36,190 nt of DNA from an uncultured Lachnospiraceae bacterium. Lineage in GTDB: Bacteria > Bacillota > Clostridia > Lachnospirales > Lachnospiraceae. The translations under genes and the position numbers were made by a program. This document shows, piece by piece, positions 3,119 through 17,132 of this stretch. Numbering within the stretch: the stretch's first letter is position 1; each line of letters begins with the position of its first letter. The notes beneath the pieces were generated by a model. The model was given only the letters and a program-made list of their open reading frames with translations, did not search any database and was not told the DNA's origin. Location: the NCBI GenBank assembly GCA_949740385.1, contig CATJJD010000212.1, forward strand, positions 1-36,190, in the 5' to 3' direction.

Positions 3119-4510
3119 TCAAAGGAAAGATGCCTGCTGCAGCGCAGCCCGCACGGGATACGCATGCTCCCGCACATGCTTCCGCCACACCGCAATTCCC
3201 AAAAGCCCCCGAAACGCCAGATCCGCCGCGTACCCGGCCCATATGCCGTACAGCCCGTACCCCAGACGAATGCCAAGCAGCCAGGAGACGCCCACATTGA
3301 GTGCCGAGCCCGCGATCACCATAAAAAACGGAACCTGCACATCCCCGATGGCCTTTAAGCTGCTCACCATAAGGGCTGCCACGCTGCGGCACAGCTCCAC
3401 AGCCACGTCAAAGTACAAAAGTCTGACGCAGGCATCCAGCATCCCCTCGTCCTCCACATACAAAGAGAGAAACGACCGCCCGAACAGAATTGCAAAAAAG
3501 CACAGAACAAGCGTCGCGCCGAGCGTGAGCCGCATACATTTCCGGAAGCATAAAAGTGCCCGCTCCTCCTGCTGCATCCCGATGCTCATGCCGATTGCCG
3601 TGGCTGCTGCCAGCGGCACCGCAGAGGCCGGCAGCGTCAGGTAATTAAAAAGATTTCCGCAGTACCCCTTCACCATAAGCGCCCGGGTGCCAAGACCCGC
3701 GATCAGAGACATTACGGCCGTCTGGGAGATCAGATAGATCACCCCTTCCATCCCGCCGAAAAACCCCATCCCGAAAATTTTTCTCGAAATTTTTGGAAAG
3801 TCACCCCGGGAAAGAATACGAAAGCCGCTGCTTCGAAAATGCTCGTTTCGCCGCATCCGCTGGAAATAAAAGCAGACGCCGAGCAGCTGGGCCAGCACCC
3901 CTGCCAGTGCATACTGGTAAATGCGCTGCCGGTCAAAAGGAACGCACACCAGAATCAGCCCGTTCATCAGCACGCAGCTGCCGTTGATCAGCACATTTCC
4001 CATCATCGCCGTCTTCATATCCCCGACAGCGCGGAACGCCGCGGCGCTCGTCATGGCGATTCCCTGAAACACCGAAAGCCCAAGAGCCACCCCAAGATAC
4101 TCTCTCGCCATGGAAAAAAGCTCATCCGGCGTCTGCATGAGCGTCAGCACAAAGCCGCCTGCGAACACCCCAACCGCCCCGGGAATCAGGGCGAGAAGCA
4201 CATTGTCAAGGATGCTGACCACCCAGATCTTTCCCCCTGTGACATACTCCCTCTTCCCACTGCAGGCCGCCAGCAAAATTCCCTGTCCCACATAGGACAC
4301 CGCGTACAGATTCAGCATCAGCGAAAGAAAGCTCCCGGCTCCCGTTGTGGCCGCCACCGCATTTTCTGAAAAACGGTTCAGTATCAGCTGGTTGAGACTG
4401 CCGATCAGAAACGTTAAGAGCAGCTCGAACACAATCGGGACAAGCATCCGGTAAATCGAATCCCCGGACTCAGAAATCCATCTCTTTTGATTTATCCTCA
4501 TCACCTTCAT
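3119..4510 (-). CDS. MATE family multidrug/metabolite exporter
   Basis: This is a 463-residue polytopic membrane protein with about twelve hydrophobic segments in two repeated lobes, typical of MATE antiporters that use Na+ or H+ gradients to export organic compounds. Features consistent with the family are the early VPIVFELLLTFLIGSLNQ helix and the repeated AAAFRAVGDMKTAMMGN and ALMVSSLKAIGDVQVPF segments, one per lobe. Its 5' end overlaps the preceding DUF5722 gene by 41 bp (4470-4510), indicating translational coupling and membership in the glycoside operon. The ATG at 4510 has a poor ribosome binding site; the ATG at 4501 is preceded closely by GAAGG and could be used instead. Its substrate is unknown; export of an aglycone or toxic by-product released by the operon's glycosidases is an inference. 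Confidence 0.88.
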   Translation of the reverse strand: MKVMRINQKRWISESGDSIYRMLVPIVFELLLTFLIGSLNQLILNRFSENAVAATTGAGSFLSLMLNLYAVSYVGQGILLAACSGKREYVTGGKIWVVSILDNVLLALIPGAVGVFAGGFVLTLMQTPDELFSMAREYLGVALGLSVFQGIAMTSAAAFRAVGDMKTAMMGNVLINGSCVLMNGLILVCVPFDRQRIYQYALAGVLAQLLGVCFYFQRMRRNEHFRSSGFRILSRGDFPKISRKIFGMGFFGGMEGVIYLISQTAVMSLIAGLGTRALMVKGYCGNLFNYLTLPASAVPLAAATAIGMSIGMQQEERALLCFRKCMRLTLGATLVLCFFAILFGRSFLSLYVEDEGMLDACVRLLYFDVAVELCRSVAALMVSSLKAIGDVQVPFFMVIAGSALNVGVSWLLGIRLGYGLYGIWAGYAADLAFRGLLGIAVWRKHVREHAYPVRAALQQASFL

Positions 4511-5750
4511 GCACCACAGGGTGCAGCAGTCTGTCGTACAGCTCCTCCCCGATAAACTCCCTCGCCCAGCGGATGCACTCCTCCTCCCGATTCGTCCCCA
4601 TCGCCTTCATGGCCTCATAGACCGGCCGCCTTCTCCCCGGCGAACCGTCCATGCTTCGCTCCCGTATTCCAAGACGAAGCCCGAATTCCTTCGGGTTGTC
4701 CAGGTACGCGTGAACCGTCATCCAGAGAATGCCGGACAGCGCCGTCACCTTCTGATAAGCCAGAATGTACCCGGCCGCCCCCTGCTTCTCCGTAAACCCG
4801 TCGTATCCTGCGTGAAAGCCCTGCTCCGACAAAATAATCGGCCTGCGCTCCCCCTCGTACAGAAACGCCTCCTGCCCCATGTAGGCGTGCAGAACCTCGA
4901 TGTTTTTAAAGGTAATCTTTTTCGTGTCAAAGTAAAAGCCGGCGGTCCGGTCATTGTAAAAGTCCGGGAAATGCAGATCCTCCGGGTACGGATGGTACGC
5001 AATTCCCCACCCGAAATCCCCCTCCTCCTTCGCAAACCGGCACACCAGATCCACCACCTCACGCCCCGGATACGTGCCGAGCGGCCGGTCCGCATAAAAG
5101 CGCTCCCCCCAGCAGTGGTCCAGAGACAGAAACACCTGCGCGTGCTCCCAGTATACGCGGGCCGCCTCCCAGGTGAGCCGCAGCGCCTTCGTGTACTCCC
5201 TGCAGTACGCTTCCGCCGTCTTCTCCCCGGCATTTCCCCAGATGCAGCCGCTGTTCACCTCGTTGGACACGATAAAGCCGGTGATTCTGCCGTACCCTGC
5301 GTCGTCCGCCATATAGCGGCAGGCGAGAAACTCCACAAAGGCCCGGTAATAGCTTCGCCCCGTCTCCGTATCCATGGAAAAGGCGCTGATAAACGCATTC
5401 TCATCGCTGCTGTCGAAATCCGGGTGCAGCACCTTTTTAAGCAGCGCCTCCTCCCTGTGGCTTTCAAACCGCTCCGGCGCGTTCAAAAGAATGGCCGTGG
5501 CGGAAATCCCGTACTGCCAGGCAAAAAGGAGCTGCCGGTCGATGGCCGCCACCGCCTCCGCGTCAAACCAGTACTTTCGCCCTTCGCACACAAAAGAAAT
5601 CGCATCCGCCGGCGGCTCCTCCCACATAAGAGCCGGCAGATTGATGTTGATCAGCGTGTGCTCGATTCCAAGCTCTCTCAAATCCTCCGTACCGCAGCCG
5701 AGCGCCTTCTTCGCGGAAAACACCTCCCTGTCATGCGTATAGATCCCCAT
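4470..5750 (-). CDS. DUF5722 protein, putative clan GH-A glycosidase
   Basis: This 426-residue cytoplasmic protein (no signal peptide) resembles the DUF5722 family, whose activity I do not know to be established. It has the hallmarks of a TIM-barrel retaining glycosidase. GFIVSNEVNS carries Asn163-Glu164, the Asn-Glu pair of the acid/base in clan GH-A, and RPIILSEQGFH carries Glu309, placed like the nucleophile at the end of strand 7. LSLDHCWG, AYHPYPEDLHFPDF and GILWMTVHAY are also typical barrel segments. A GAGGAGG ribosome binding site precedes the ATG at 5750. It follows the PHP gene by 67 bp and overlaps the MATE gene. In this locus it probably cleaves a second sugar or linkage in the imported rhamnoside; the substrate is not deducible. 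Confidence 0.75.
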   Translation of the reverse strand: MGIYTHDREVFSAKKALGCGTEDLRELGIEHTLININLPALMWEEPPADAISFVCEGRKYWFDAEAVAAIDRQLLFAWQYGISATAILLNAPERFESHREEALLKKVLHPDFDSSDENAFISAFSMDTETGRSYYRAFVEFLACRYMADDAGYGRITGFIVSNEVNSGCIWGNAGEKTAEAYCREYTKALRLTWEAARVYWEHAQVFLSLDHCWGERFYADRPLGTYPGREVVDLVCRFAKEEGDFGWGIAYHPYPEDLHFPDFYNDRTAGFYFDTKKITFKNIEVLHAYMGQEAFLYEGERRPIILSEQGFHAGYDGFTEKQGAAGYILAYQKVTALSGILWMTVHAYLDNPKEFGLRLGIRERSMDGSPGRRRPVYEAMKAMGTNREEECIRWAREFIGEELYDRLLHPVVHEGDEDKSKEMDF

Positions 5751-5817: not shown

Positions 5818-6792
5818 TCAGAATCCCATCTCATCCAGATCCCAGGCGTTCGTCCAGGCCCGCTTTCCGTCTTTTCGCATCAGCACCGCCCGGACGGCCC
5901 CGCCGAACTCTCTTCGCACTGCGGAGAGGGGAATCTCGGCGTGCGTGATGCTGTCCGCCCCGTCGTATATCGCCCAGGCATTGTTGATGCCGCAGTCCTT
6001 CATCATCACGGAGCAGACCGGGCCGCAGTCAATGACAAGCCGGTCATTTTCCAGATATATCCCCTCAATCAGCGGGCCGTTTGACGCGTAGAGATGGCCG
6101 GCGCAGATGGCGTCCGTCACCGCCCGGTAAGTAAGCTCCCTCGCCTTTATCATCGTAAACCCGCCGCAGGAGTCAAAATCTGGCCCCGGCCCCCCGCCGG
6201 TCTCGTACACCGGCGGATTGTGGTTGTCGTCCGTCGCGATGGGAAAGGCTCTTCTGCCGCTCTTTACCCAGAGATCGTACTGCTGATCCCCGTAGCCGGC
6301 CCCGGTGGAAACCTCCGCGCCGTAGTTGAACACCTCAAAGCATGTGATGCCATGCAGCGCCAGAAAATCCTCCGTGTGCTCCAGCGACCAGGCCGGATGA
6401 TTGTAATTGACGATAAAGCCGGCTTCCCGCAGCCTTTGAATCATCTCATTGATCTTTTCACTGTCGTACACCACCGGTCTCTCCACCATCTGCGCCCTTT
6501 CCGGGTCGAGGGCCAGCGCGCACAGGTGGTCTGCAATCGGATGCCCGCCCTCGCCCTTCCTGCCGTCATTGTTGACCTCGTAGCCGGCCAGCGGAAGAAA
6601 ACGCTCCTCCGAAAGCTCCTTATGATACACATAGCGGTTGTGGTCCGTGAAGGCCACAATGCTGTATCCCCTCTCCATGTACAGCTCCTTCACCTGCTGC
6701 GGCGTCAGCATGCCGTCCGAGTAAGTCGTGTGGCAGTGAAGATTCGCCTTATAAAAATTTCCCTCTGCGGGAATCAGATCCGTCCGCCCCAT
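5818..6792 (-). CDS. PHP-domain (CehA/McbA-like) metallohydrolase
   Basis: This 324-residue protein has the polymerase-and-histidinol-phosphatase metal-binding fold. Likely metal ligands are NLHCHTTYSDG (H19, H21, D26), AFTDHN (D50, H51), E72, YNHPAW (H132) and ATDDNH (D188, H191). The family hydrolyses phosphoesters or related bonds with a di- or trinuclear metal site. Members close to CehA/McbA are often found in carbohydrate loci with unknown substrates. The C-terminal 100 residues (from about 230) look like a small beta-rich domain. There is no signal peptide, so it should act in the cytoplasm. GGAGGATAAGGCT precedes the ATG. It lies 17 bp after the ADP-ribosylglycohydrolase-family gene in the operon, suggesting it processes a sugar phosphate or ester from the imported glycoside. 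Confidence 0.8.
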   Translation of the reverse strand: MGRTDLIPAEGNFYKANLHCHTTYSDGMLTPQQVKELYMERGYSIVAFTDHNRYVYHKELSEERFLPLAGYEVNNDGRKGEGGHPIADHLCALALDPERAQMVERPVVYDSEKINEMIQRLREAGFIVNYNHPAWSLEHTEDFLALHGITCFEVFNYGAEVSTGAGYGDQQYDLWVKSGRRAFPIATDDNHNPPVYETGGGPGPDFDSCGGFTMIKARELTYRAVTDAICAGHLYASNGPLIEGIYLENDRLVIDCGPVCSVMMKDCGINNAWAIYDGADSITHAEIPLSAVRREFGGAVRAVLMRKDGKRAWTNAWDLDEMGF

Positions 6793-6809: not shown

Positions 6810-8336
6810 TTACTCTGCGCTCCAGCCGGTCACAAGGGGAAGGCAGACAAACAGCTTCGTAAACCGCCCGTGGGACGAAAGCCGCATCACAATCTCATAC
6901 CTTCCCTCCGTCAGACCCTTCGGCACAACCGCAAAATCAAATTCCGTCACCTCTCGCCCCCCGTGATTCTGGTCAAGATTCACGTCAAAACCGTCCGCCG
7001 GAAGCCCCTGAAAGGACTCCGGAAGCAAAAGCTTCACCGAAAGCCACTGCTGGCTGTGAAGCCGGTTTCGGATTTTAACATGAAAGCGCTTTGTGATCTC
7101 CCTGTGCACCGACAGACTCCCGTCATAAAACACCTGCACGTCGAACAGACAGCAGGACGCCCTCACATGAACCGGAGAAACAGCCGCCTCCTCCGAGAAC
7201 ACCCGGACATTGCCAAAGCCTGCGTCCCTCCGGTTCCGGTAAATACTCTCCACCGGGTCAAGCTCCAGCACCCCGTCTTCGTTCAGCCTGCAGAATCCGT
7301 GCAGAAACACCGGCATCAGATTCACAACCCGCGCAGACAGCTCGCTCACGGTCTTCGGGATCGAAAGACAGCGCTTCGTCACATCGACGGAGCAGGTTTT
7401 GATCACATCCCCCACCGGCGCAAGCCACTTTTCGCCGATGGCTGCGCAGCCTCCGATAATCCCGAGAATCGCCCCGAGTGTCCCCGCCGTGCAGTCCGCA
7501 TCCTCGCAGCAGCCCGCGGCAATGCAGATGCTCTCTGCGAAATCGCCTTCCCCGTACACCCAGCCAATCATCATAAGCCCGATATTGGCCGGCGCGTCGT
7601 ACCCCAGCGGCCCCGCCGGCACATCCTCCTCGGGCACCGGATCGAGATATCCGTTCGCCATGCCAAAGGAGCAGGGAAAGCGCTGCAGCATGCGCTTTCT
7701 CGCCTGCTTCCAGTCAAGCCCTGACGCTTTGCACTCCTGCGCAAGGCCCACCGCCCGCGCGACGGCGCAGTCCTTCGGTATGTAGGTCATCGCCGCGTCC
7801 ACAAGCTTTTCCCTGTCCGTCTCCACAAAGGCCGCGCTCTCAAGCGCCGCGCAGAAGATCTCCGCGTACATCCCCTCGTCTGCGTGGTCGCAGACGGCGT
7901 CCTCGTAAGCATAGTGCACCGCAATTTCCGGATGCCCCGGCGCAAGGCAGGCCCAGAGCTCGCTGCGGATAAAGCAGCCGCAGCTGTCCTTATTCCGGTT
8001 GTTGTACCAGCCGGACAGAGGCGGAGTCAGCCCGTAGCGCATGTTGTTTTTCCCCGCCCCGTACTCCGACCAGTCCGCCGTCACAAAGGAGAGCCAGTAC
8101 TCTCCCAGTATGCCGGCGTCAAGGCTTCTCCCGTAGCGCTCCGCCGCATTCAGCCACACAAGCTGCAGATCCACGTCGTCGTTTGGCAGCACGCCGTCCG
8201 ACACATCGTGCAGGTACCAGGAGATGTCCCGGACGCCCCGAAAGCCCTCCAGCGGCGCCCCCAGCGTTCCGCCGATATTTTTCCCGAGCCAGCAGGCTCT
8301 CACCTTATCCCGGTACTCCGAAATCGTAAGCTGCAT
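6810..8336 (-). CDS. ADP-ribosylglycohydrolase-family protein
   Basis: This is a 508-residue protein starting at ATG 8336, chosen because GGGAGGG lies 7 nt upstream; the longer frame starting at 8384 has no such site. The N-terminal 350 residues match the DraG/ADP-ribosyl-hydrolase fold. GKNIGGTLGAP is the start of the fold, LPNDDVDLQ (N52, D53, D54, D56) is the first metal-binding block, and EDADCTAGTLGAILG (D279, D281, T283) is the second. The C-terminal 150 residues form an extra beta-rich domain not found in classical DraG. Family members in gut Firmicutes often sit beside glycosidases, and some may act on non-ADP-ribose N- or O-glycosides. Here it follows the rhamnosidase gene by 34 bp, so a carbohydrate role is more likely than removal of protein ADP-ribose, but this is inferred. 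Confidence 0.82.
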   Translation of the reverse strand: MQLTISEYRDKVRACWLGKNIGGTLGAPLEGFRGVRDISWYLHDVSDGVLPNDDVDLQLVWLNAAERYGRSLDAGILGEYWLSFVTADWSEYGAGKNNMRYGLTPPLSGWYNNRNKDSCGCFIRSELWACLAPGHPEIAVHYAYEDAVCDHADEGMYAEIFCAALESAAFVETDREKLVDAAMTYIPKDCAVARAVGLAQECKASGLDWKQARKRMLQRFPCSFGMANGYLDPVPEEDVPAGPLGYDAPANIGLMMIGWVYGEGDFAESICIAAGCCEDADCTAGTLGAILGIIGGCAAIGEKWLAPVGDVIKTCSVDVTKRCLSIPKTVSELSARVVNLMPVFLHGFCRLNEDGVLELDPVESIYRNRRDAGFGNVRVFSEEAAVSPVHVRASCCLFDVQVFYDGSLSVHREITKRFHVKIRNRLHSQQWLSVKLLLPESFQGLPADGFDVNLDQNHGGREVTEFDFAVVPKGLTEGRYEIVMRLSSHGRFTKLFVCLPLVTGWSAE

Positions 8337-8370
8337 CAAAAAGCCCTCCCTTCCTGTTTCCTGACAAGCC

Positions 8371-11025
8371 TCACAGCACCGCAAGAATCTCGTAATGTCC
8401 CTTCACAAGCCGCAGGCTGTCGCCCTTTTTCCCCCCGGTAACCGAAACGCCGTTGACAGACACACGGCTGCAGTCAAAGGTAAACACAAAGGACGCCTCC
8501 GCGTCGAAGGGAACCTCCACCTCAAAGAGATAGCCCTCCTCCGTCCGTCTCCAGCCCCCCGCAATTTTTCCGCTGGCGGAATCAAAGGTCATACAAACCT
8601 GAGAAAACCGGCTGTCCACGTAAGGCTTCACCACAAACCGCCGGAAGCCCGGCGCATCCTCGCACGGGTTCACGCCGCACATATACCGGTACATCCACTC
8701 CACAATGGCCCCGTAGGAGTAGTGGTTTAAGCTGTTCATGCCCGTGTCGCTGATTTTTCCGTCCGGCAGCACCGAGTTCCAGCGCTCCCACACCGTCGTC
8801 GCCCCCATGTTCACCTGGTACAGCCAGCTCGGGTAGTCCTCGTTCAAAAGCAGCGTGTAGGCTGCATCCGACAGGCCGTTTTGCGCCAGCGCGGCACAGA
8901 GAAACGCATTTCCCACAAATCCCGTAGTCAGATGCATCTCCTCCTCCTTAAGCTTTCGAAGCAGGTCAGAGGTCAGACGCTCCTTTGCCCCCTCCGGCGC
9001 AAGGTCAAAGAACAGCGCAAGGGCCAGCCCCGTCTGGGTGTCCGCCGCAAGCCTTCCGGTTGCGGTAAAGTACTCCTTTTGGATCGCAGCCTTCACATGG
9101 CCCGCAAGCTTTCCGTAGTAAGCCGCATCCTCCTCTTTTCCCAGCGCGGCCGCCGCCTTCGCCGTCAGTGAGGCGGAATAGTAATAGTAGACGCTGGCGA
9201 TAAAGTAGGGGTCCGTCGCCCCGAAGCTTGAGCCCTTATGGTAATTGTCCAGCGCCAGCCAGTCCGCGTAGTGAAAGCCGTCGGTCCACAGATAGCTGCC
9301 GCCGCACTTTTCCAGATCGATTTTTCGGATACAGTCGGTCCAGTCCTTCATGTTCCCGTACTGGCCCGCAAGCATTCCCTTATCCCCGTACATGATGTAC
9401 ATCGTCCAGGGGATAATGGTGGCCGCGTCCGACCAGGCGCAGGCGTTCACCGCCGTGTTCACCGACACATTGTCGGTCTGCTTGTCCCGCTCATGCAAAA
9501 GTCTGTGAATCTGCCCCAAAATATCCGGCACCACATGAGGCACGCCGCCATCCAGCGTATCCTGCTCCAGCTTCATATCGTAGAGATACTTGTCAAAAAA
9601 TGCCGGTGTGTACATATTAAAAGCGGCAGTGGCTGCAAACACCTGGGCGTCCCCCGTCCAGCCCATCCGCTCGTCACGCTGGGGGCAGTCCGTCGGCACA
9701 TCCAGAAAATTCCCCTTCTGTCCCCAGAGGGCGTTTAAGAAGAGCCGGTTGATCTTCCCGTTGTCCGTCACAATATTTCCGGTGCGCTCCATCTCGGAGT
9801 AGATCACGCACCCCTTAAAGTTTTCCGGCAAAACTGCGGACATGCCGGTAATTTTCATGTACCGGAAGCCGTAAAAGGTAAAATGCGGCCGCACCTTTGC
9901 CCTTTTTCCGTCGGAAATATAGCGAAACTCCTGCTTCGCCGTCCGCAGGTTCTCATTGTAGAAATTTCCGTCCTGCAGAATCTCTCCGAACTGAAGGAGG
10001 ATCTCTGTCCCCTCCGGCTCGCCGCACACAAATTCCACCCAGCCCGTCATATTCTGCCCGAAATCCAGTACCTGCTCCCCCGCCGGCGTAGCGATCAATT
10101 CTTTCGGGGAGACCACCTCCATAATTTTTACCGGAAGGCTCATCCTTGGCGTAAGCGGCGCAGCCGGCCCCTCCGTCTCAACCGCAGGAACGAAGCCGCT
10201 CTCCTCGCAGATCACGTCCGCCCAGCCTTCTGTCTCCCTTCCCGCATCCCAGACCTCGCCGTCGTAGATGCTGCTCTCGATAACCGGAGACTCTGCGCAC
10301 AGGAAGCTGCCGTCGCTTGTGATGACCTCCGTCCCCCCGTCCCGGTAGGTCACATCCAGCTTCATAATCAGAAAAAACTTATCCCCGTAGAGCCGGTCCA
10401 TGTGCTCCACAAAGCCGAAGCGACCCTTGTACCAGCCGTTTCCAAGCATAACGCCAAGGGCGTTCTCCCCCCGGTGCAAAAGCTCCGTCACATCGTAGGT
10501 CTGGTACTGAATCCAGAGATTGTAGTCGTTGTAAAAGGGAGCCAGATACTCGTCCCCCGCCTTTTTCCCGTTGATCCAGGCCTCGTAGACGCCAAGGCCG
10601 CTCACCGCAAGGCGCGCGCTTTTCACCTCGTCCCTTAGCGTGATGCGTTTTCGAAACAGCGGATGGATTTCCCCGGAAAAAGGAGCGGTAATCCATTTCG
10701 CCCCCGAAAGGTCCCCCGCCGTCTCAAACCACGCCGGATTGGACACCGCCGTATCCCCCGCGTCATCCCACACCCGAACCCGCCAGTAGTAGCGGGTCGC
10801 AGCAGCCAACTCTATCTTTGGATCATAGTGGAGACTGTCCAGATCCTCTCTCTCTCCGCTGTCGGACACGCAGTCCGCAAACTGCGCATCCCGGCTCACC
10901 TCCACCCTGGCTTTTTTTGTCCGAAGACCCTTCGCCTCCGTGACAACCCAGGAGAGGCTCACATGCTCCATCCGATATCCCAGCGGGTTTTTGATGTGAT
11001 TGGTTCTCAGTTTTTCTATTTTCAT
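8371..11025 (-). CDS. Alpha-L-rhamnosidase (GH78)
   Basis: The 884-residue enzyme hydrolyses terminal alpha-L-rhamnose from glycosides such as plant flavonoids or polysaccharide side chains. The family layout is visible: an N-terminal fibronectin-III-like domain (about 1-102), the carbohydrate-binding/N domain with WINGKKAGDEYLAPFYNDY (about 150-168), a beta-sandwich, and an (alpha/alpha)6 barrel from about 420. The hallmark DCPQRDERMGWTGDAQ is at 446-461, holding the catalytic acidic cluster (D446, D451, E452, D459). SLNHYSYGAIVEWMY near the end of the barrel is the region of the catalytic base. There is no signal peptide, so the rhamnoside must be imported first, consistent with the transporter genes upstream. 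GAGGAAAGC precedes the ATG. A C-terminal beta-domain closes the protein. Confidence 0.93.
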   Translation of the reverse strand: MKIEKLRTNHIKNPLGYRMEHVSLSWVVTEAKGLRTKKARVEVSRDAQFADCVSDSGEREDLDSLHYDPKIELAAATRYYWRVRVWDDAGDTAVSNPAWFETAGDLSGAKWITAPFSGEIHPLFRKRITLRDEVKSARLAVSGLGVYEAWINGKKAGDEYLAPFYNDYNLWIQYQTYDVTELLHRGENALGVMLGNGWYKGRFGFVEHMDRLYGDKFFLIMKLDVTYRDGGTEVITSDGSFLCAESPVIESSIYDGEVWDAGRETEGWADVICEESGFVPAVETEGPAAPLTPRMSLPVKIMEVVSPKELIATPAGEQVLDFGQNMTGWVEFVCGEPEGTEILLQFGEILQDGNFYNENLRTAKQEFRYISDGKRAKVRPHFTFYGFRYMKITGMSAVLPENFKGCVIYSEMERTGNIVTDNGKINRLFLNALWGQKGNFLDVPTDCPQRDERMGWTGDAQVFAATAAFNMYTPAFFDKYLYDMKLEQDTLDGGVPHVVPDILGQIHRLLHERDKQTDNVSVNTAVNACAWSDAATIIPWTMYIMYGDKGMLAGQYGNMKDWTDCIRKIDLEKCGGSYLWTDGFHYADWLALDNYHKGSSFGATDPYFIASVYYYYSASLTAKAAAALGKEEDAAYYGKLAGHVKAAIQKEYFTATGRLAADTQTGLALALFFDLAPEGAKERLTSDLLRKLKEEEMHLTTGFVGNAFLCAALAQNGLSDAAYTLLLNEDYPSWLYQVNMGATTVWERWNSVLPDGKISDTGMNSLNHYSYGAIVEWMYRYMCGVNPCEDAPGFRRFVVKPYVDSRFSQVCMTFDSASGKIAGGWRRTEEGYLFEVEVPFDAEASFVFTFDCSRVSVNGVSVTGGKKGDSLRLVKGHYEILAVL

Positions 11026-11075: not shown

Positions 11076-11921
11076 CTAGCCCTTCACCGCTCCGGCCGTC
11101 AGCCCCTCCATGTAGAGCCGGGACGTAAACAGGAACAGAATCAGGAGCGGAATCGTCGCAATGACATATCCGGCAAACATAATCCCGATGTTGGACACGT
11201 CCTGGGATGACGTAAACACCTTTAACACAACCGTCACCACCTGTTTGGCGTTAGATTCGATCACCATCATCGGCCAGATAAAGTCGTTGTAGTAGTCCAC
11301 AACCTTTAATACCGCAACCGTGGACAAAATGGGCTTCACAAGGGGCACCGTGATGCTTAACAGAAGCCGAAACTCCCCGCACCCCTCAATCCGCGCCGCC
11401 TCAAACAGATCCTGCGGCAGCGCCTCAATGGAGTTGCGGCAGAGAATAATTCCAAGCACCTGCCCCCCGGTGATCCAGCACAGAATCACCGCCCAGCGGG
11501 AATTTAACAGCCCGTATTCGATAATCAGCGTGTAGTTGGCCGCAAGGGACAAAACTCCCGGAATCATCATCACCGCCATAATCATGGCAAACAGCAGATT
11601 TTTTCCCGGAAAATTCCTGGTGGCAAAGGCGTAGCCCCCCAGCACCGAGAGCACCAGCGTAAGAACCACCGCAACCGCAACCATCATCAGCGTGTTCCAC
11701 ATATTGCCGGACAGGTAGTCAAAGGCCCCTCTGTAGTTGCTCCACTCCACATGCTGCGGCAGCCCGAAGAAATTGTTGAACACCTCCCAGGTGGACTTGA
11801 AGGACATGACGATCATGAGAAATATGGGCACAAAGGCCAGCACCAGAATCAGGACCATAATAATCTCAATAACTGTCTGAAAACGGATCTCTTTCTTTTC
11901 CCGGTCACTCAATTTTCTCAT
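11076..11921 (-). CDS. CUT1 sugar ABC transporter permease, MalG type
   Basis: This 281-residue inner permease subunit has six predicted transmembrane helices. The EAA loop, EAARIEGCGEFRLLLS followed by ITVPLVKPIL (about 190-215), binds the cytoplasmic ATPase. It ends with the EGLTAGAVKG tail typical of MalG/LacG homologues. Only 4 bp separate it from the upstream MalF-type gene, and AGGGAGTGATGGT precedes its ATG. No ATPase gene is present; as in many Firmicutes CUT1 systems, a shared MsmK/UgpC-type ATPase encoded elsewhere probably energises it. Confidence 0.93.
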   Translation of the reverse strand: MRKLSDREKKEIRFQTVIEIIMVLILVLAFVPIFLMIVMSFKSTWEVFNNFFGLPQHVEWSNYRGAFDYLSGNMWNTLMMVAVAVVLTLVLSVLGGYAFATRNFPGKNLLFAMIMAVMMIPGVLSLAANYTLIIEYGLLNSRWAVILCWITGGQVLGIILCRNSIEALPQDLFEAARIEGCGEFRLLLSITVPLVKPILSTVAVLKVVDYYNDFIWPMMVIESNAKQVVTVVLKVFTSSQDVSNIGIMFAGYVIATIPLLILFLFTSRLYMEGLTAGAVKG

Positions 11922-11925
11922 ACCA

Positions 11926-13896
11926 TCACTCCCTCTCCTTCGTCAGTTTATTGCTCACAAGCGTCACCGCCATCGTAAATACGAGAAGCACCACGCCAAG
12001 GGCCGACGCGTACCCGTAGCGGCCGTACTGGGCGGCGTTTAAGTACAGCTCAAGCGCCGGAACATACGTCGCCGTTCCAGGCCCTCCGCTTGTCAGAATA
12101 AAGATGCTGTTGAACTCCTGCATCGCGCCCAGCACCGTCAGCGTCATCATAATGCTGATCTGGGGGCGGATCATCGGAAGCTGCACCTTCCAGAAAATAT
12201 CCCACTTTGTACCGCCGTCGATTAAGGCGGATTCGATCACGTCGTTTCCGATATTAAGGAGGCCGCCGTAGTACACCAGAAGCGCCATTGCCCCCACAAA
12301 AGGAAATCCCATAAAGATGACGGCTCCCATGGCCGTGGAGGAGTCTCCCAGCCACACCCGCTGCATGGAGGTCAGTCCCACGGCTCCCAGAATCTGATTC
12401 AGAAGGCCGATGGACGGGTCATAGATTTTCTGCCATACCAGCGCCGTCACCACTCCCGGCACAACCATCGGCAGCACGAACAGAAAACGGTGCACGTACT
12501 TTCTCCTTGCGCCCGCAATGTTAAACAGCATCCAGGCGATGGCCATCGGCACGGTGAGCGTCTTTACGATGTTCGCTGCAAGCAGAAGAAGCAGGTTCTT
12601 AAGGCCGATCAGAAAGTATCCCTCCGTCAGCATTGTCCTGAAATTGTCCAGTCCGATGAAATTGAACTCCGCCACCGACCCTTTTTTCACCGACCAGTCG
12701 GTAAAGGCCCTTGTCAGCGCCGTAAAAATGCCCCGGTACGAAAACAGATACAACAGCACAAAGGTCGGAATAAGCATAACGTAGGCCATTCGCTGCTTCC
12801 ACATCTGCTTAAGCAGCCTAAGCGACGCCGCCTTAAGCTTTGGAACGCTTCCGATGACACAGATGAGAAATGCCGCGGCAATCACCCGCAACGCGGTCCG
12901 GAGAATGGAGTCAAGCTTCTGGTACAGCTCAATGTTCTGCAGATTTTTCGCGTGGGTGCAAAAAACCGCATCCCCGTATCCCGCAAGGAAAATGCGCCCC
13001 TCGTCGGAGGCGGAATCGGTGATCTTCATCTTCATGTCCGCCATGTAAATCTGCCGGCCGCCCGGGTCCATCACAAACAGATAGCCCTCTTCCGTCCCCA
13101 CAGCCACGTACTCGCCGCCTGTGTCGACGCCGATGCTGCTGATCTTCGCCTTTACCGTGTTGTCAATTTTGCCCTTTCGGATGCACTCCAGATTTTCGTC
13201 AAGCCCGAACCAGGACCCGTCCTTTGCCACGGCCCAGTAGCCGCCGGCGCAGGCCTTCATCTGGATAATCTCGTAGTTTGCGCCATAGGACGCCAGCACC
13301 TCTCCGCTCTCCGTCACATGCTCCACATCCCCCCGCTTGTTGGCGAGCATCAGTGTATCGCCGTCCTCACAGTACTCTGCGCCCCGCAGCGACAGCGTGT
13401 AAGGCGTATTTGCGAGCTCCGTCCCGTCGGCGGAAAAAATCATAAGGTTGGATTTGGATGAGCCGGTGTTTGTGATCACCGCAATTTTCGACTCGTCGGC
13501 ATTCACCGCGACGCCCACCGCTTTCCGCTGCACGTCAATGTCCAACAGCAGCTCCCCGTCCGAGGTCCGAAACACGTACACATGGTTGCTCTCGTTTGCC
13601 GCATACAGCCTGTCGCCGCCCGCTCCCAGAACAAGCTTTCTGTATGCGCCCTCCGTTTTTGTCTTCCACAGCTCTTTATCGTCCTGCCAGGCCGAGAGCA
13701 CGCCGCCGTGGGTCCCCACGTACATGACGCCCCGCATTCTGTCATACGCAAGGCTCTGATTCATGTCGCCCGTTGTAATGTCGGCGCTCTCGATTCCCTC
13801 CGAGCGGCTCTCGCAGAAGGCCTTTGTGCAAAATGCCGCTATGCCGAGCACCAGGAAGAGCGCTGCCGCAGCCGGCCACAGTATTTTCTTTTTCAT
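11926..13896 (-). CDS. Beta-propeller/MalF-type permease fusion
   Basis: This 656-residue protein is more than twice the usual 290-310 of a CUT1 MalF-type permease. Residues 6-25 form a hydrophobic signal anchor. Residues about 36-325 are a soluble beta-propeller-like domain with repeating blades of WD40/PQQ type: AYDRMRGVMYVGTHGGVLSAW, then LYAANESNHVYVFRTSDG, LMIFSADGTEL and YVAVGTEEGYLFVMDPGG. A second membrane helix (about 334-352) and a basic loop (KLKAASLRLLKQMWKQR) lead into the permease core (about 368-650). The core has six helices and an EAA-like loop, ESALIDGGTKWDIFWKVQL (555-573). The topology places the propeller outside the membrane beside the binding protein. One continuous frame and the AAAGGAG ribosome binding site before the ATG argue against an assembly artefact. 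The domain may sense or dock the binding protein; its ligand is unknown. Confidence 0.9.
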   Translation of the reverse strand: MKKKILWPAAAALFLVLGIAAFCTKAFCESRSEGIESADITTGDMNQSLAYDRMRGVMYVGTHGGVLSAWQDDKELWKTKTEGAYRKLVLGAGGDRLYAANESNHVYVFRTSDGELLLDIDVQRKAVGVAVNADESKIAVITNTGSSKSNLMIFSADGTELANTPYTLSLRGAEYCEDGDTLMLANKRGDVEHVTESGEVLASYGANYEIIQMKACAGGYWAVAKDGSWFGLDENLECIRKGKIDNTVKAKISSIGVDTGGEYVAVGTEEGYLFVMDPGGRQIYMADMKMKITDSASDEGRIFLAGYGDAVFCTHAKNLQNIELYQKLDSILRTALRVIAAAFLICVIGSVPKLKAASLRLLKQMWKQRMAYVMLIPTFVLLYLFSYRGIFTALTRAFTDWSVKKGSVAEFNFIGLDNFRTMLTEGYFLIGLKNLLLLLAANIVKTLTVPMAIAWMLFNIAGARRKYVHRFLFVLPMVVPGVVTALVWQKIYDPSIGLLNQILGAVGLTSMQRVWLGDSSTAMGAVIFMGFPFVGAMALLVYYGGLLNIGNDVIESALIDGGTKWDIFWKVQLPMIRPQISIMMTLTVLGAMQEFNSIFILTSGGPGTATYVPALELYLNAAQYGRYGYASALGVVLLVFTMAVTLVSNKLTKERE

Positions 13897-14011: not shown

Positions 14012-15697
14012 CTATTTCAGTCCCGCAGGCTCCGCAGCCGGATTTGCCAGATCCTCCGCCGTGATGCCCTTGCTCTCCAGCGCCGCGTCAAAGTAGGCCT
14101 TAAAGTTCTCCACCTGCGTCTTCAGATACTCGTCCACCGTGATGGAGCCCGTCAGAAACGCGTGGGCGTTGTTGTAGTACTCTCTGGTGGATTCCGGCAG
14201 CTCGCACAGACCTCTGCTCAGCGCGTTGCCGTAATTCTTCTGGGCGTTGCCCACATATTTCACGTTGGCGAATGCGTTGGCAACCTCGTCCGGGTAGTCC
14301 ACATTGTATACCAGGGACGGGCCGCTCGGCGCAAACCCTGCCGCAATGGCCGCATCCAAAAATACGCTCATGCCCTCCGCGGAGGAGTAGTACATCACAA
14401 AGTCCGCCACAAGCTCGTCGTGCTCCTGCCCCTTGGACACCGCGCCGAGGAACCCTTCCGGAACCTCAATGGTTCTCACCGGAGCCTCAATGCCGTCGCC
14501 CTCCATCGTAGGCATGGAGAAGGTTCCAAGGGTGAACACCTTCGCATCCTCCACCACGCTGTCCTTGACGGAAATGCTCTCGCCGTTGTTAATCGCTTTC
14601 ATGTTGTTGGCAAATTCCATAATACCCCAGCCGCCGTTTACGGTCATGGCTGCCTTGCCCTGATAGAACAGCGTCTGAGCGCCGTCCTTGTTCGTTCCAA
14701 ACATCGTCTCGTTGCCGGCATACTTCGGGAACACCTTCGCAAAGTTGTTCCACACGGTCTTCATGCCTTCCGTATCCGGCGTGAAGGTGCCGTCCTGAAT
14801 CGACTGGAAGAAGCGGACCGGATTTCTTGTCACATACACCGTGTCGTCGTTCCACGGGTCCGTCGGGTCGTAGGTCCATGCCGCGTCCACATCCGGATCC
14901 CAGGTAAAGTCGCCCTCCTGGCTTCTCCAGTACTCGATGGAGGAGCGGGTGGTCTGATCCGCGTAGATCTGCGACAGCCATCCCATGGTGCCCGAGTAGA
15001 AGCTGTCGTAATCGCCCGGCATGGCGATGGCCTGATAGCCCGCCGCCTCGATCTTCTCGCACACATCAATCAGCTCGTCCCAGGTAGTCGGGATGCTGAC
15101 GCCCACCTCGTCGAAAATGTTCTGATTGTAGAACCACATAACCTGTGTGGACTGCAGACACAGCTGCTTCCACATGCCGGTTCCGGGCTCGATGGTCTGC
15201 ATGTCATACTGAAACTGATCCTTCCAGACGCCGTCGGAGTACGGACTGTCCATATCCGCGTAGTCGTTCCAGTCGATGTGCTTGCCGGTCTCGGAGCCGC
15301 CGCCGTAATTGATGGCCACAATGTCCACCGCCGTGGTGTCGCTTGTGGCAAACACGTTGTTCAGCCACTGGTCGTACCCCTCCTCCGCCTTTAAGTCCAC
15401 AACCACCTTCACGTCCGGGTGCAGATCCATATAGGCCGCCGCCACCGCGTCCCAGCCCTCCTGCACGCCGGTCTTCGCCGTCATGCTCACCGTGATGGTC
15501 TTATCGCCTCCGGAGGCCTGAGGTTCGTCCTCCCCCGCGCCGGTATCCGGCACGTCGGCATTGTCCGCCTGGGTATTCACCAGATTGTTTCCGCTGTCCT
15601 GGTTTTCGTCACCCGCCGCCGGTCCGCCGCAGCCCGCCAGAGCCGTCGCCGTCATTGCTGCGGTCAAAAGCATCGCCATGATTTTTCTCTTCTTCAT
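14012..15697 (-). CDS. Sugar ABC transporter substrate-binding lipoprotein
   Basis: This is a 561-residue extracytoplasmic solute-binding protein of CUT1 type. The N-terminus has a KKRK charge block, a hydrophobic core and a lipobox LAGC with Cys23 as the lipidated residue. An acidic, Asn/Asp-rich linker follows (about 28-66). The mature domain starts TITVSMTAKTGVQEGWDAVAAAY and contains TTWDELIDVCEKIEAAGYQAIA and a GKAAMTVNGGWG segment, both common in this family. At 561 residues it is longer than the usual 420-450, suggesting insertions for a large glycan ligand. GGAGGAAACGAAGTT precedes the ATG. As first gene of the operon it would capture the rhamnoside and deliver it to the propeller-fused permease. 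Confidence 0.93.
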   Translation of the reverse strand: MKKRKIMAMLLTAAMTATALAGCGGPAAGDENQDSGNNLVNTQADNADVPDTGAGEDEPQASGGDKTITVSMTAKTGVQEGWDAVAAAYMDLHPDVKVVVDLKAEEGYDQWLNNVFATSDTTAVDIVAINYGGGSETGKHIDWNDYADMDSPYSDGVWKDQFQYDMQTIEPGTGMWKQLCLQSTQVMWFYNQNIFDEVGVSIPTTWDELIDVCEKIEAAGYQAIAMPGDYDSFYSGTMGWLSQIYADQTTRSSIEYWRSQEGDFTWDPDVDAAWTYDPTDPWNDDTVYVTRNPVRFFQSIQDGTFTPDTEGMKTVWNNFAKVFPKYAGNETMFGTNKDGAQTLFYQGKAAMTVNGGWGIMEFANNMKAINNGESISVKDSVVEDAKVFTLGTFSMPTMEGDGIEAPVRTIEVPEGFLGAVSKGQEHDELVADFVMYYSSAEGMSVFLDAAIAAGFAPSGPSLVYNVDYPDEVANAFANVKYVGNAQKNYGNALSRGLCELPESTREYYNNAHAFLTGSITVDEYLKTQVENFKAYFDAALESKGITAEDLANPAAEPAGLK

Positions 15698-15780: not shown

Positions 15781-15801
15781 GTTACCCCGGTCACCGGGTA
15801 G
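15781..15801. promoter_or_regulatory. Distal repressor-like operator
   Basis: The plus strand reads GTTACCCCGG, then TCACC, then GGGTAG, an imperfect palindrome with TACCC and GGGTA half-sites. It shares the GTTAC...GGGTAG outer halves with the proximal site near the promoter, in opposite orientation. It lies in the leader about +90 to +110, with its centre about 83 bp from the proximal site, which could permit DNA looping. Confidence 0.5.
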
Positions 15802-15867
15802 ATTTGACACTATTTTCTTTTGTTTTCCTCCCTGCCTATAGTCATTATGCATATTTTTCAGCTTTAG

Positions 15868-15880
15868 CTACCCGAGTAAC
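15868..15880. promoter_or_regulatory. Proximal repressor-like operator
   Basis: CTACCCGAGTAAC is a LacI-family-like imperfect palindrome with a central CpG. It lies about +9 to +21 from the start expected for the operon promoter, a classical place for repression by blocking transcription initiation. The adjacent LacI-family protein is the natural candidate to bind it. Confidence 0.55.
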
Positions 15881-16049: not shown

Positions 16050-16103
16050 ACTTAAATGGCGTACAGAAACAGTACTGATTTTATGCGCTTTTGGAGGATA
16101 AAA

Positions 16104-17132
16104 ATGGCAGTAACCCGCAAGGATGTGGCAAAAATGGCAAATGTATCCGTGGCCACCGTATCCTATGTCATCAACAACACAAAAAATGTAACCCCGGAGG
16201 TTCGAAAACGGGTGCTCGACGCGGTGGACGCCCTCAATTACCACCCGAATCTTCTGGCCAAGAGTCTGGCCACCAGGGAGACCAGACATGTGGCCATGCT
16301 GGTGGACAATATCCAGAATCCCCACTACGGGAGGCTGATGCGCGGCGTTCAGCACGCGGCCGAGCAGGAGGGCTACATCGTCTCCGTCCTCTCCATCAAC
16401 TACTCCACCAGGGAGGCGATGCGCGAGCTCGTCTCAAGGGGCGTAGACGGCGTGATTCTCGCCCTGGGCGGCTACAGCATCCGGGATTTTTCCGACATGA
16501 ACCTTCCGACGGTCTACGAGACGGCGACGCTTCAGACCAGCTACCGGAAAGCGATCTTTGACATGGTGCGTCTCTTTCGGGATCTGGGGCACCGGCGCAT
16601 CGCCTTCTTAAGCGGTCTTCCGCTGACGGAGAGGCCCCATGTCCGCTTCCGGGATTTCATGGACGCGCTGCAGAGCTTTCGTATTGAAATGTGTCCGGAG
16701 CTGTTTATCGACGGGGACGGCGCCACCGACGAGGCAGCCGGCTACGAGGCGGCAGACAGGCTCTTAAACTGCGGCAGCGAGTTCACGGCGGTCTTTACGG
16801 TCAACGACCTGATGGCCATCGGGGCCTTAAAGCGTCTCTGGGAGGCAGGACTTAAGGTTCCCGCGGACGTCTCCGTGGTGGGCTGTGACGGCATCAGCTC
16901 AAGCGCCTACACGATCCCGCCCCTCTCCACGATTCAGAGCCACTCCTTTAAGCTGGGGGAGGCGCTTATGCTCCAGCTCATCTCACAGATCCACCCGGAG
17001 CGGGAGCTGGCAATGCCGGTGCAGATCATCGAGGCGAAATTTGTGGAGCGGGAGAGCGTCGGGCCGGCCAGAAAGCTGTCCGGGGTCCCGCGATTTTTAC
17101 AGCAGCCGCATTCACCGAACCAGACAGGATGA
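16104..17132 (+). CDS. LacI-family transcriptional regulator
   Basis: This 342-residue repressor has the standard layout. An N-terminal helix-turn-helix TRKDVAKMANVSVATVSYVI (4-23) is followed by a hinge helix with NLLAKSLATR (49-58). A periplasmic-binding-protein-like sensor domain follows, including MLVDNIQNPHYGRLMRGV and GDGATDEAAGYEAA. I chose ATG 16104 because GGAGG lies 7 nt before it and it matches the family N-terminus MAVTRKDVAK; the upstream in-frame ATG at 16056 falls at the predicted transcription start. The gene is divergent from the glycoside operon, which has two candidate operators, so a local repressor induced by a rhamnoside-derived sugar is likely. Only 24 bp separate it from aroC, so both may be on one transcript. 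Confidence 0.92.
   Translation: MAVTRKDVAKMANVSVATVSYVINNTKNVTPEVRKRVLDAVDALNYHPNLLAKSLATRETRHVAMLVDNIQNPHYGRLMRGVQHAAEQEGYIVSVLSINYSTREAMRELVSRGVDGVILALGGYSIRDFSDMNLPTVYETATLQTSYRKAIFDMVRLFRDLGHRRIAFLSGLPLTERPHVRFRDFMDALQSFRIEMCPELFIDGDGATDEAAGYEAADRLLNCGSEFTAVFTVNDLMAIGALKRLWEAGLKVPADVSVVGCDGISSSAYTIPPLSTIQSHSFKLGEALMLQLISQIHPERELAMPVQIIEAKFVERESVGPARKLSGVPRFLQQPHSPNQTG

Follow-up and report, generated by a model that had tools for sequence, protein, structure and literature searches.

A MalF-type sugar permease fused to a predicted seven-bladed beta-propeller, and an acidic insert in its partner binding protein

The window analysed here, a whole stretch of 36,190 nucleotides from an uncultured Lachnospiraceae bacterium, codes for a MalF-type permease subunit of a CUT1 sugar importer joined in frame to a predicted beta-propeller (11926–13896, minus strand). 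CUT1 importers are a main sugar-uptake route in many bacteria. To our knowledge, it is not well understood how the binding protein stays close to the permease in bacteria that have no periplasm. The binding protein encoded beside the fusion carries an acidic insert, which we saw only where the partner permease is fused. Computation showed the fusion in a single frame and its recurrence, a propeller fold by prediction, the pattern of hydropathy, a common group of the fused permeases, a conserved order of genes and, in the binding protein, the insert that goes with the propeller. We propose, giving the idea about an even chance, that the propeller on the MalF-type subunit is a platform on which the binding protein docks.

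The fusion gene was a single open reading frame from ATG to stop, coding for 656 aa. From the N-terminus it contained an extra transmembrane helix (residues 5–23, 13828–13884; Kyte-Doolittle 2.34 over 19 residues, residues 3–32 in the model), the propeller (residues 30–325, 12922–13809), a second extra helix (residues 331–349, 12850–12906; Kyte-Doolittle 2.12), a basic and presumably cytoplasmic linker (residues 350–369, 12790–12849) with six K/R and no D/E, and the permease core (residues 370–656, 11929–12789), all on the minus strand. Pfam placed PQQ_2 at residues 68–201 and BPD_transp_1 at 460–647, both above their curated cut-offs; the latter scored 47.2 bits against a cut-off of 26.4, as expected of a CUT1 permease. 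Among solved structures the core was nearest to AlgM1 (79.6 bits), with MalF and SugA next (54–55 bits). We take the core to have six helices, as is usual in the family; the hydropathy scan passed five of them in the window protein, and for the missing one the model had a helix at 577–597, with low pLDDT. With the two extra helices this gives eight in total, including the core helix that only the family pattern and the model supply. From residue 361 on, where the model covers the permease, pLDDT was low (32–78 per block), and its geometry there was left unused. An EAA-type loop was recognized by eye at residues 555–575 (12172–12234, minus strand), the ATPase contact in such permeases according to PMC3150292.

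A hydrophobic helix flanked the propeller on each side in all ten fused homologues (19-residue hydropathy scan). The linker between helix 2 and the first core helix held 5–8 K/R in every homologue and was free of D/E in nine of the ten, and the N-terminus of the window fusion was also basic (three K/R in residues 1–5). By the positive-inside rule, both basic segments should lie in the cytoplasm, so that the propeller should be outside. Since it sits between the two extra helices, the extra domain would occupy loop 1, between helices 1 and 2. The earlier note, made from the letters alone, had described the fusion of a MalF-type permease with a propeller outside the membrane; Pfam, hydropathy and fold prediction agree with this description, the outside location resting on the topology argument.

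The structure prediction contained 28 strands arranged in seven blades and matched solved seven-bladed propellers, the best structural matches listed being mostly eukaryotic WD40 domains. The alternative outcome, a prediction with no propeller, did not occur. The PQQ_2/BamB-like family (PF13360) scored 30.1 bits (cut-off 27.6), a match spanning just 134 residues of the window protein. In six other fused proteins scanned whole, three passed and three missed by 0.6–1.1 bits.

The fusion was present in one frame in each of the ten assemblies where it was found (the window and nine others), which bore out the recurrence in related genomes that the earlier note had named as support; two separate genes, its alternative for the homologues, were found in none of the ten systems. 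A homologue from a metagenome-assembled genome (L001) was 60% identical to the window protein over the whole length, and two single-contig genomes, G056 and G166, also held the fusion (46% and 42%). Matches to propeller profiles numbered 3 in 392 genomes of the order, 6 in 391 of the class, 2 in 398 of the phylum and 2 in 22 of the family of G056, these samples overlapping. The six class-level matches were five fusions, including the window, and one free propeller; the latter, a lipoprotein-like protein of 384 aa in G433, was rejected as a fusion. The two phylum-level matches were the window and G1111. The five further fusions from class and phylum formed clade II, with 25–27% identity to the window protein. 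Searches that used only the binding protein reached yet another fused clade, the third (G507), which was absent from the class-level propeller matches. The fused design is rare in the sampled genomes, yet spread across several families. In a whole-protein search of plasmids 2474 records matched, none with one place covering 80%, a search that a divergent fusion could escape.

When 33 permease cores were placed in a tree, one branch separated the ten fused from the 23 unfused ones, with a support of 100/97.8 and in 100% of 200 bootstrap trees. The unfused rows comprised 14 loci from the genome search and nine picked as nearest relatives; L005, L011, L012 and L017 were left out because of stop codons in the matches, and many matches without loci were unused. 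An earlier tree of 27 rows, one of them MalG, had supported the fused clade at just 63/41; the larger tree gained nearer unfused rows and lost the MalG row. The fusion likely arose once, and it was probably on this same stem that the binding protein gained its insert. With one likely origin shared by both, the ten joint occurrences of insert and propeller amount to roughly a single event. Compared with L001, G056 and G166, identity was 55, 35 and 31% in the propeller and 71, 63 and 57% in the core. Each of six comparisons showed the most change at third codon positions; no dN/dS is claimed, as five of them had a saturated dS. The unfused sister CUT1 permeases, from Deinococcus plasmids (L041, L042) and from L068–L072, were at best 39–43% identical to the fused cores. 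Unlike the fusion, they measured 295–332 aa and had no propeller, and their binding proteins lacked the insert.

The solute-binding protein (14012–15697, minus strand; 561 aa, SBP_bac_1) is encoded next to the fusion, as the earlier note had it, and began with a lipobox-like N-terminus recognized by eye. With the MalG-type gene (11076–11921, minus strand; 281 aa) on the other side, the fusion is flanked by importer genes. The acidic insert covered residues 261–291 approximately (14825–14917, minus strand). It was found in the binding proteins of ten of ten fused systems and in none of ten near relatives from unfused systems: 56–58 residues separated two conserved anchors in the former against 17–41 in the latter. 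Four aspartates of the insert (D267, D271, D277 and D284) were invariant in the ten proteins, and nine had the stretch DP[DE]xD[GA]. From its sequence, the insert looks able to bind metal. The insert was missing from the three solved relatives with alignments listed, and AlgQ2, the binding protein of the Sphingomonas alginate importer, was not among the best 60 of the 73 solved matches. The calcium loop of AlgQ2 is presumably placed elsewhere in the binding protein than the acidic insert. An EF-hand-like calcium motif, DPNGNG, is described for cluster G binding proteins in PMC12710961.

On the minus strand from 15697 to 4470, the binding protein, the fusion and the MalG-type subunit were followed by a GH78-type alpha-L-rhamnosidase (8371–11025, 884 aa), an ADP-ribosylglycohydrolase-family protein (6810–8384, 524 aa from the longest possible start), a CehA/McbA-type PHP metallohydrolase (5818–6792, 324 aa) and a DUF5722 protein (4470–5750, 426 aa). 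Strand and spacing suggest that these genes are co-transcribed. A DUF5722 gene also stood ahead of a clade II system (L036 5135–6688); a search of open-licence papers gave none on DUF5722. A divergent LacI-family regulator (16056–17132, plus strand) was preceded by two operator-like palindromes on the plus strand, at 15781–15794 and 15867–15880, with two mismatches and one mismatch, respectively, to GTTACYCGRGTAAC; the window had no further site within two mismatches. In all four clade I loci this palindrome adjoined the gene of the regulator, the best site having 0–1 mismatches, and it occurred at L001 3061, L026 9023 and L025 12345 and 12377; none was present within three mismatches in three clade II stretches (L038, L039, L040). 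The set of LacI regulator, binding protein, fusion, MalG-type subunit and rhamnosidase was also kept in L001, G056 and G166.

Because of the GH78 neighbour, the substrate in the window is likely a rhamnose-containing oligosaccharide. Behind the clade III importer, the place of GH78 was taken by a protein (L052 12225–14195) in which GH42M scored above its cut-off, and GHL6 and fucosidase families matched more weakly. In clade II, the importer was followed in G765 and G1111 by a protein of about 965 aa, for which a Pfam scan of two copies gave no match. Its gene also started behind the importer in G684 and in G649, where the contig end truncates it (L038 2889–5780, L040 11654–14575, L081 for G684, G649:C118 and C79). 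It is possibly a new glycoside hydrolase family. A relative in L001 (360–1559), 60% identical over 343 residues, had a length of just 399 aa and is thus truncated or interrupted there; no relative was found in G000 (the window genome), G056, G166 or G507. For the energiser, no UgpC-type ATPase exceeded the 432-bit cut-off in the window genome, and three matches reached 275–296 bits: C75 (beside a PotB-like gene, named by eye), C196 (model positions 3–236) and C267:3–506. The last, an ATPase fragment near the UgpC type, cut by the contig end and scoring 286 bits over model positions 1–168 only, is a candidate energiser of the importer.

Several known systems resemble parts of this arrangement. 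According to PMC2246101 and PMC3150292, E. coli MalF is likewise a CUT1 permease that exceeds the usual six helices by two and has a large domain outside the membrane, where in MalF it contacts the binding protein. It has eight helices, and its P2 domain of 180 residues lies between helices 3 and 4 (PMC2246101), so the place is different, as the earlier note had stated. In the fusion, a propeller of about 300 residues is located between helices 1 and 2. The site that would correspond to P2, between the core helices 373–391 and 435–453, measured about 43 residues and held no large domain, and the NCBIfam MalF model, with a cut-off of 392 bits, gave just 49.8, which sets the protein apart from E. 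coli-type MalF. The fold also appears to differ as proposed, a propeller by prediction here against another fold in P2. AlgM1, of the AlgM1M2SS/AlgQ2 system of Sphingomonas, is the best solved match of the core; its chain of 301 residues leaves no room for a propeller, unlike the fusion. The related permeases MalF1 and MalG1 of the Thermotogales also contain large additional hydrophilic regions, that of MalF1 lying between helices 3 and 4, unlike in the fusion (PMC2246101). No permease-propeller architecture was found in the open-licence literature, weak evidence of novelty.

In the model that we propose, the MalF-type subunit would have gained, most likely once, an extra helix pair holding the seven-bladed propeller on the outer face. 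The propeller would stand next to the importer's mouth, where it would hold or orient the lipid-anchored binding protein by means of the acidic, possibly metal-binding insert, and the binding protein held in this way would hand over its sugar efficiently. On the propeller, a basic residue was present at position 125 in all ten proteins and K148 in nine; both could meet the acidic loop. Contacts of this kind are described in PMC3150292, where MalF P2 contacts MalE, and in PMC5717064, where the EF-hand-like calcium loop of AlgQ2 meets the transporter. The stronger version, in which propeller and acidic insert arose jointly as a two-part docking module and the lipoprotein is captured by a metal-stabilised acidic loop, seems to us somewhat short of an even chance. 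Such holding of the donor protein on an ABC importer was not found in the open-licence literature, again weak evidence of novelty. Some observations speak against docking. The propeller is acidic overall (30 K/R against 46 D/E in residues 27–330), a composition that would not favour an acidic partner. It is also more variable than the core, with a mean entropy of 1.84 against 1.11 and only two residues, G158 and G271, invariant in the ten proteins. Unfused relatives manage with neither the propeller nor the insert.

The main rival, to which we assign roughly one chance in four, is that the propeller is a carbohydrate-binding domain: at the membrane it would capture poly- or oligosaccharide, which would thereby be concentrated for the binding protein. 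The GH78 rhamnosidase of the same operon and the glycoside-hydrolase-like gene behind the clade III importer agree with it, and the basic positions 125 and 148 could bind uronates. With 24.2 bits, the clade III protein also came close to the cut-off of 26.8 for the lambda-carrageenase beta-propeller family (PF25292). Six propeller positions were aromatic in at least eight of the ten proteins, but five are in strands and only Y208 is in a loop, so that no aromatic sugar platform is evident; the best structural matches listed, mostly eukaryotic WD40 domains, also speak against sugar binding, although a fold tells little of function.

It is rather improbable that the propeller is a structural element for assembly or stability, touching neither sugar nor binding protein and derived from a membrane-anchored propeller such as DUF5711 (PF18975). 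Proteins of this family are propeller-like, but have no permease. Of 21 related genomes, 17 had a match above the cut-off, in open frames of 388–460 aa, and those inspected began with a hydrophobic helix (by eye). The clade II protein L028 passed DUF5711 at 44.6 bits (cut-off 26.3), and a profile comparison with the family gave 92.6% (E 4.7e-7), which makes descent from DUF5711 possible. However, L028 was the sole passer among the ten fused proteins, scanned whole or in part, the window protein was below the family cut-off and unlisted at E 0.01, and propellers cross-match easily; this explanation also leaves the insert of the binding protein aside. Examples of DUF5711 are L073 1279–2535 and 2547–3260, between LysM-like and CvpA-like genes (names by eye), and G000:C452:690–1718; the literature search for the family turned up one paper, on Acinetobacter.

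Slightly less probable still is the role suggested in the earlier note, that of sensing or gating the delivery of glycans, by reporting on it or controlling it, which gained no positive evidence. The two helices anchor the propeller directly ahead of the permease core, and motion could pass on through them; Pfam and NCBIfam scans, however, gave no cytoplasmic signalling domain in the fusion, and the LacI gene with its operator-like sites accounts for regulation in the four clade I loci. The correlated insert fits docking better than sensing or gating. That two genes were joined by an assembly or annotation artefact or a sequencing error can practically be dismissed: the window genome is a draft broken into 481 contigs, but nine other assemblies, including the single-contig G056 and G166, have the uninterrupted fusion, and the propeller codon changes relative to L001 fall mostly on third positions (99, 80 and 183 at positions 1, 2 and 3).

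Extra outside domains on CUT1 permeases are already known from MalF P2 and the Thermotogales; new here are a different fold, a different site and a matching change in the partner protein. As near relatives with neither part exist, the propeller permease and its matching insert constitute a natural experiment. If the docking platform is real, the solution found in MalF P2 would have an independent counterpart, built with another fold in another loop.
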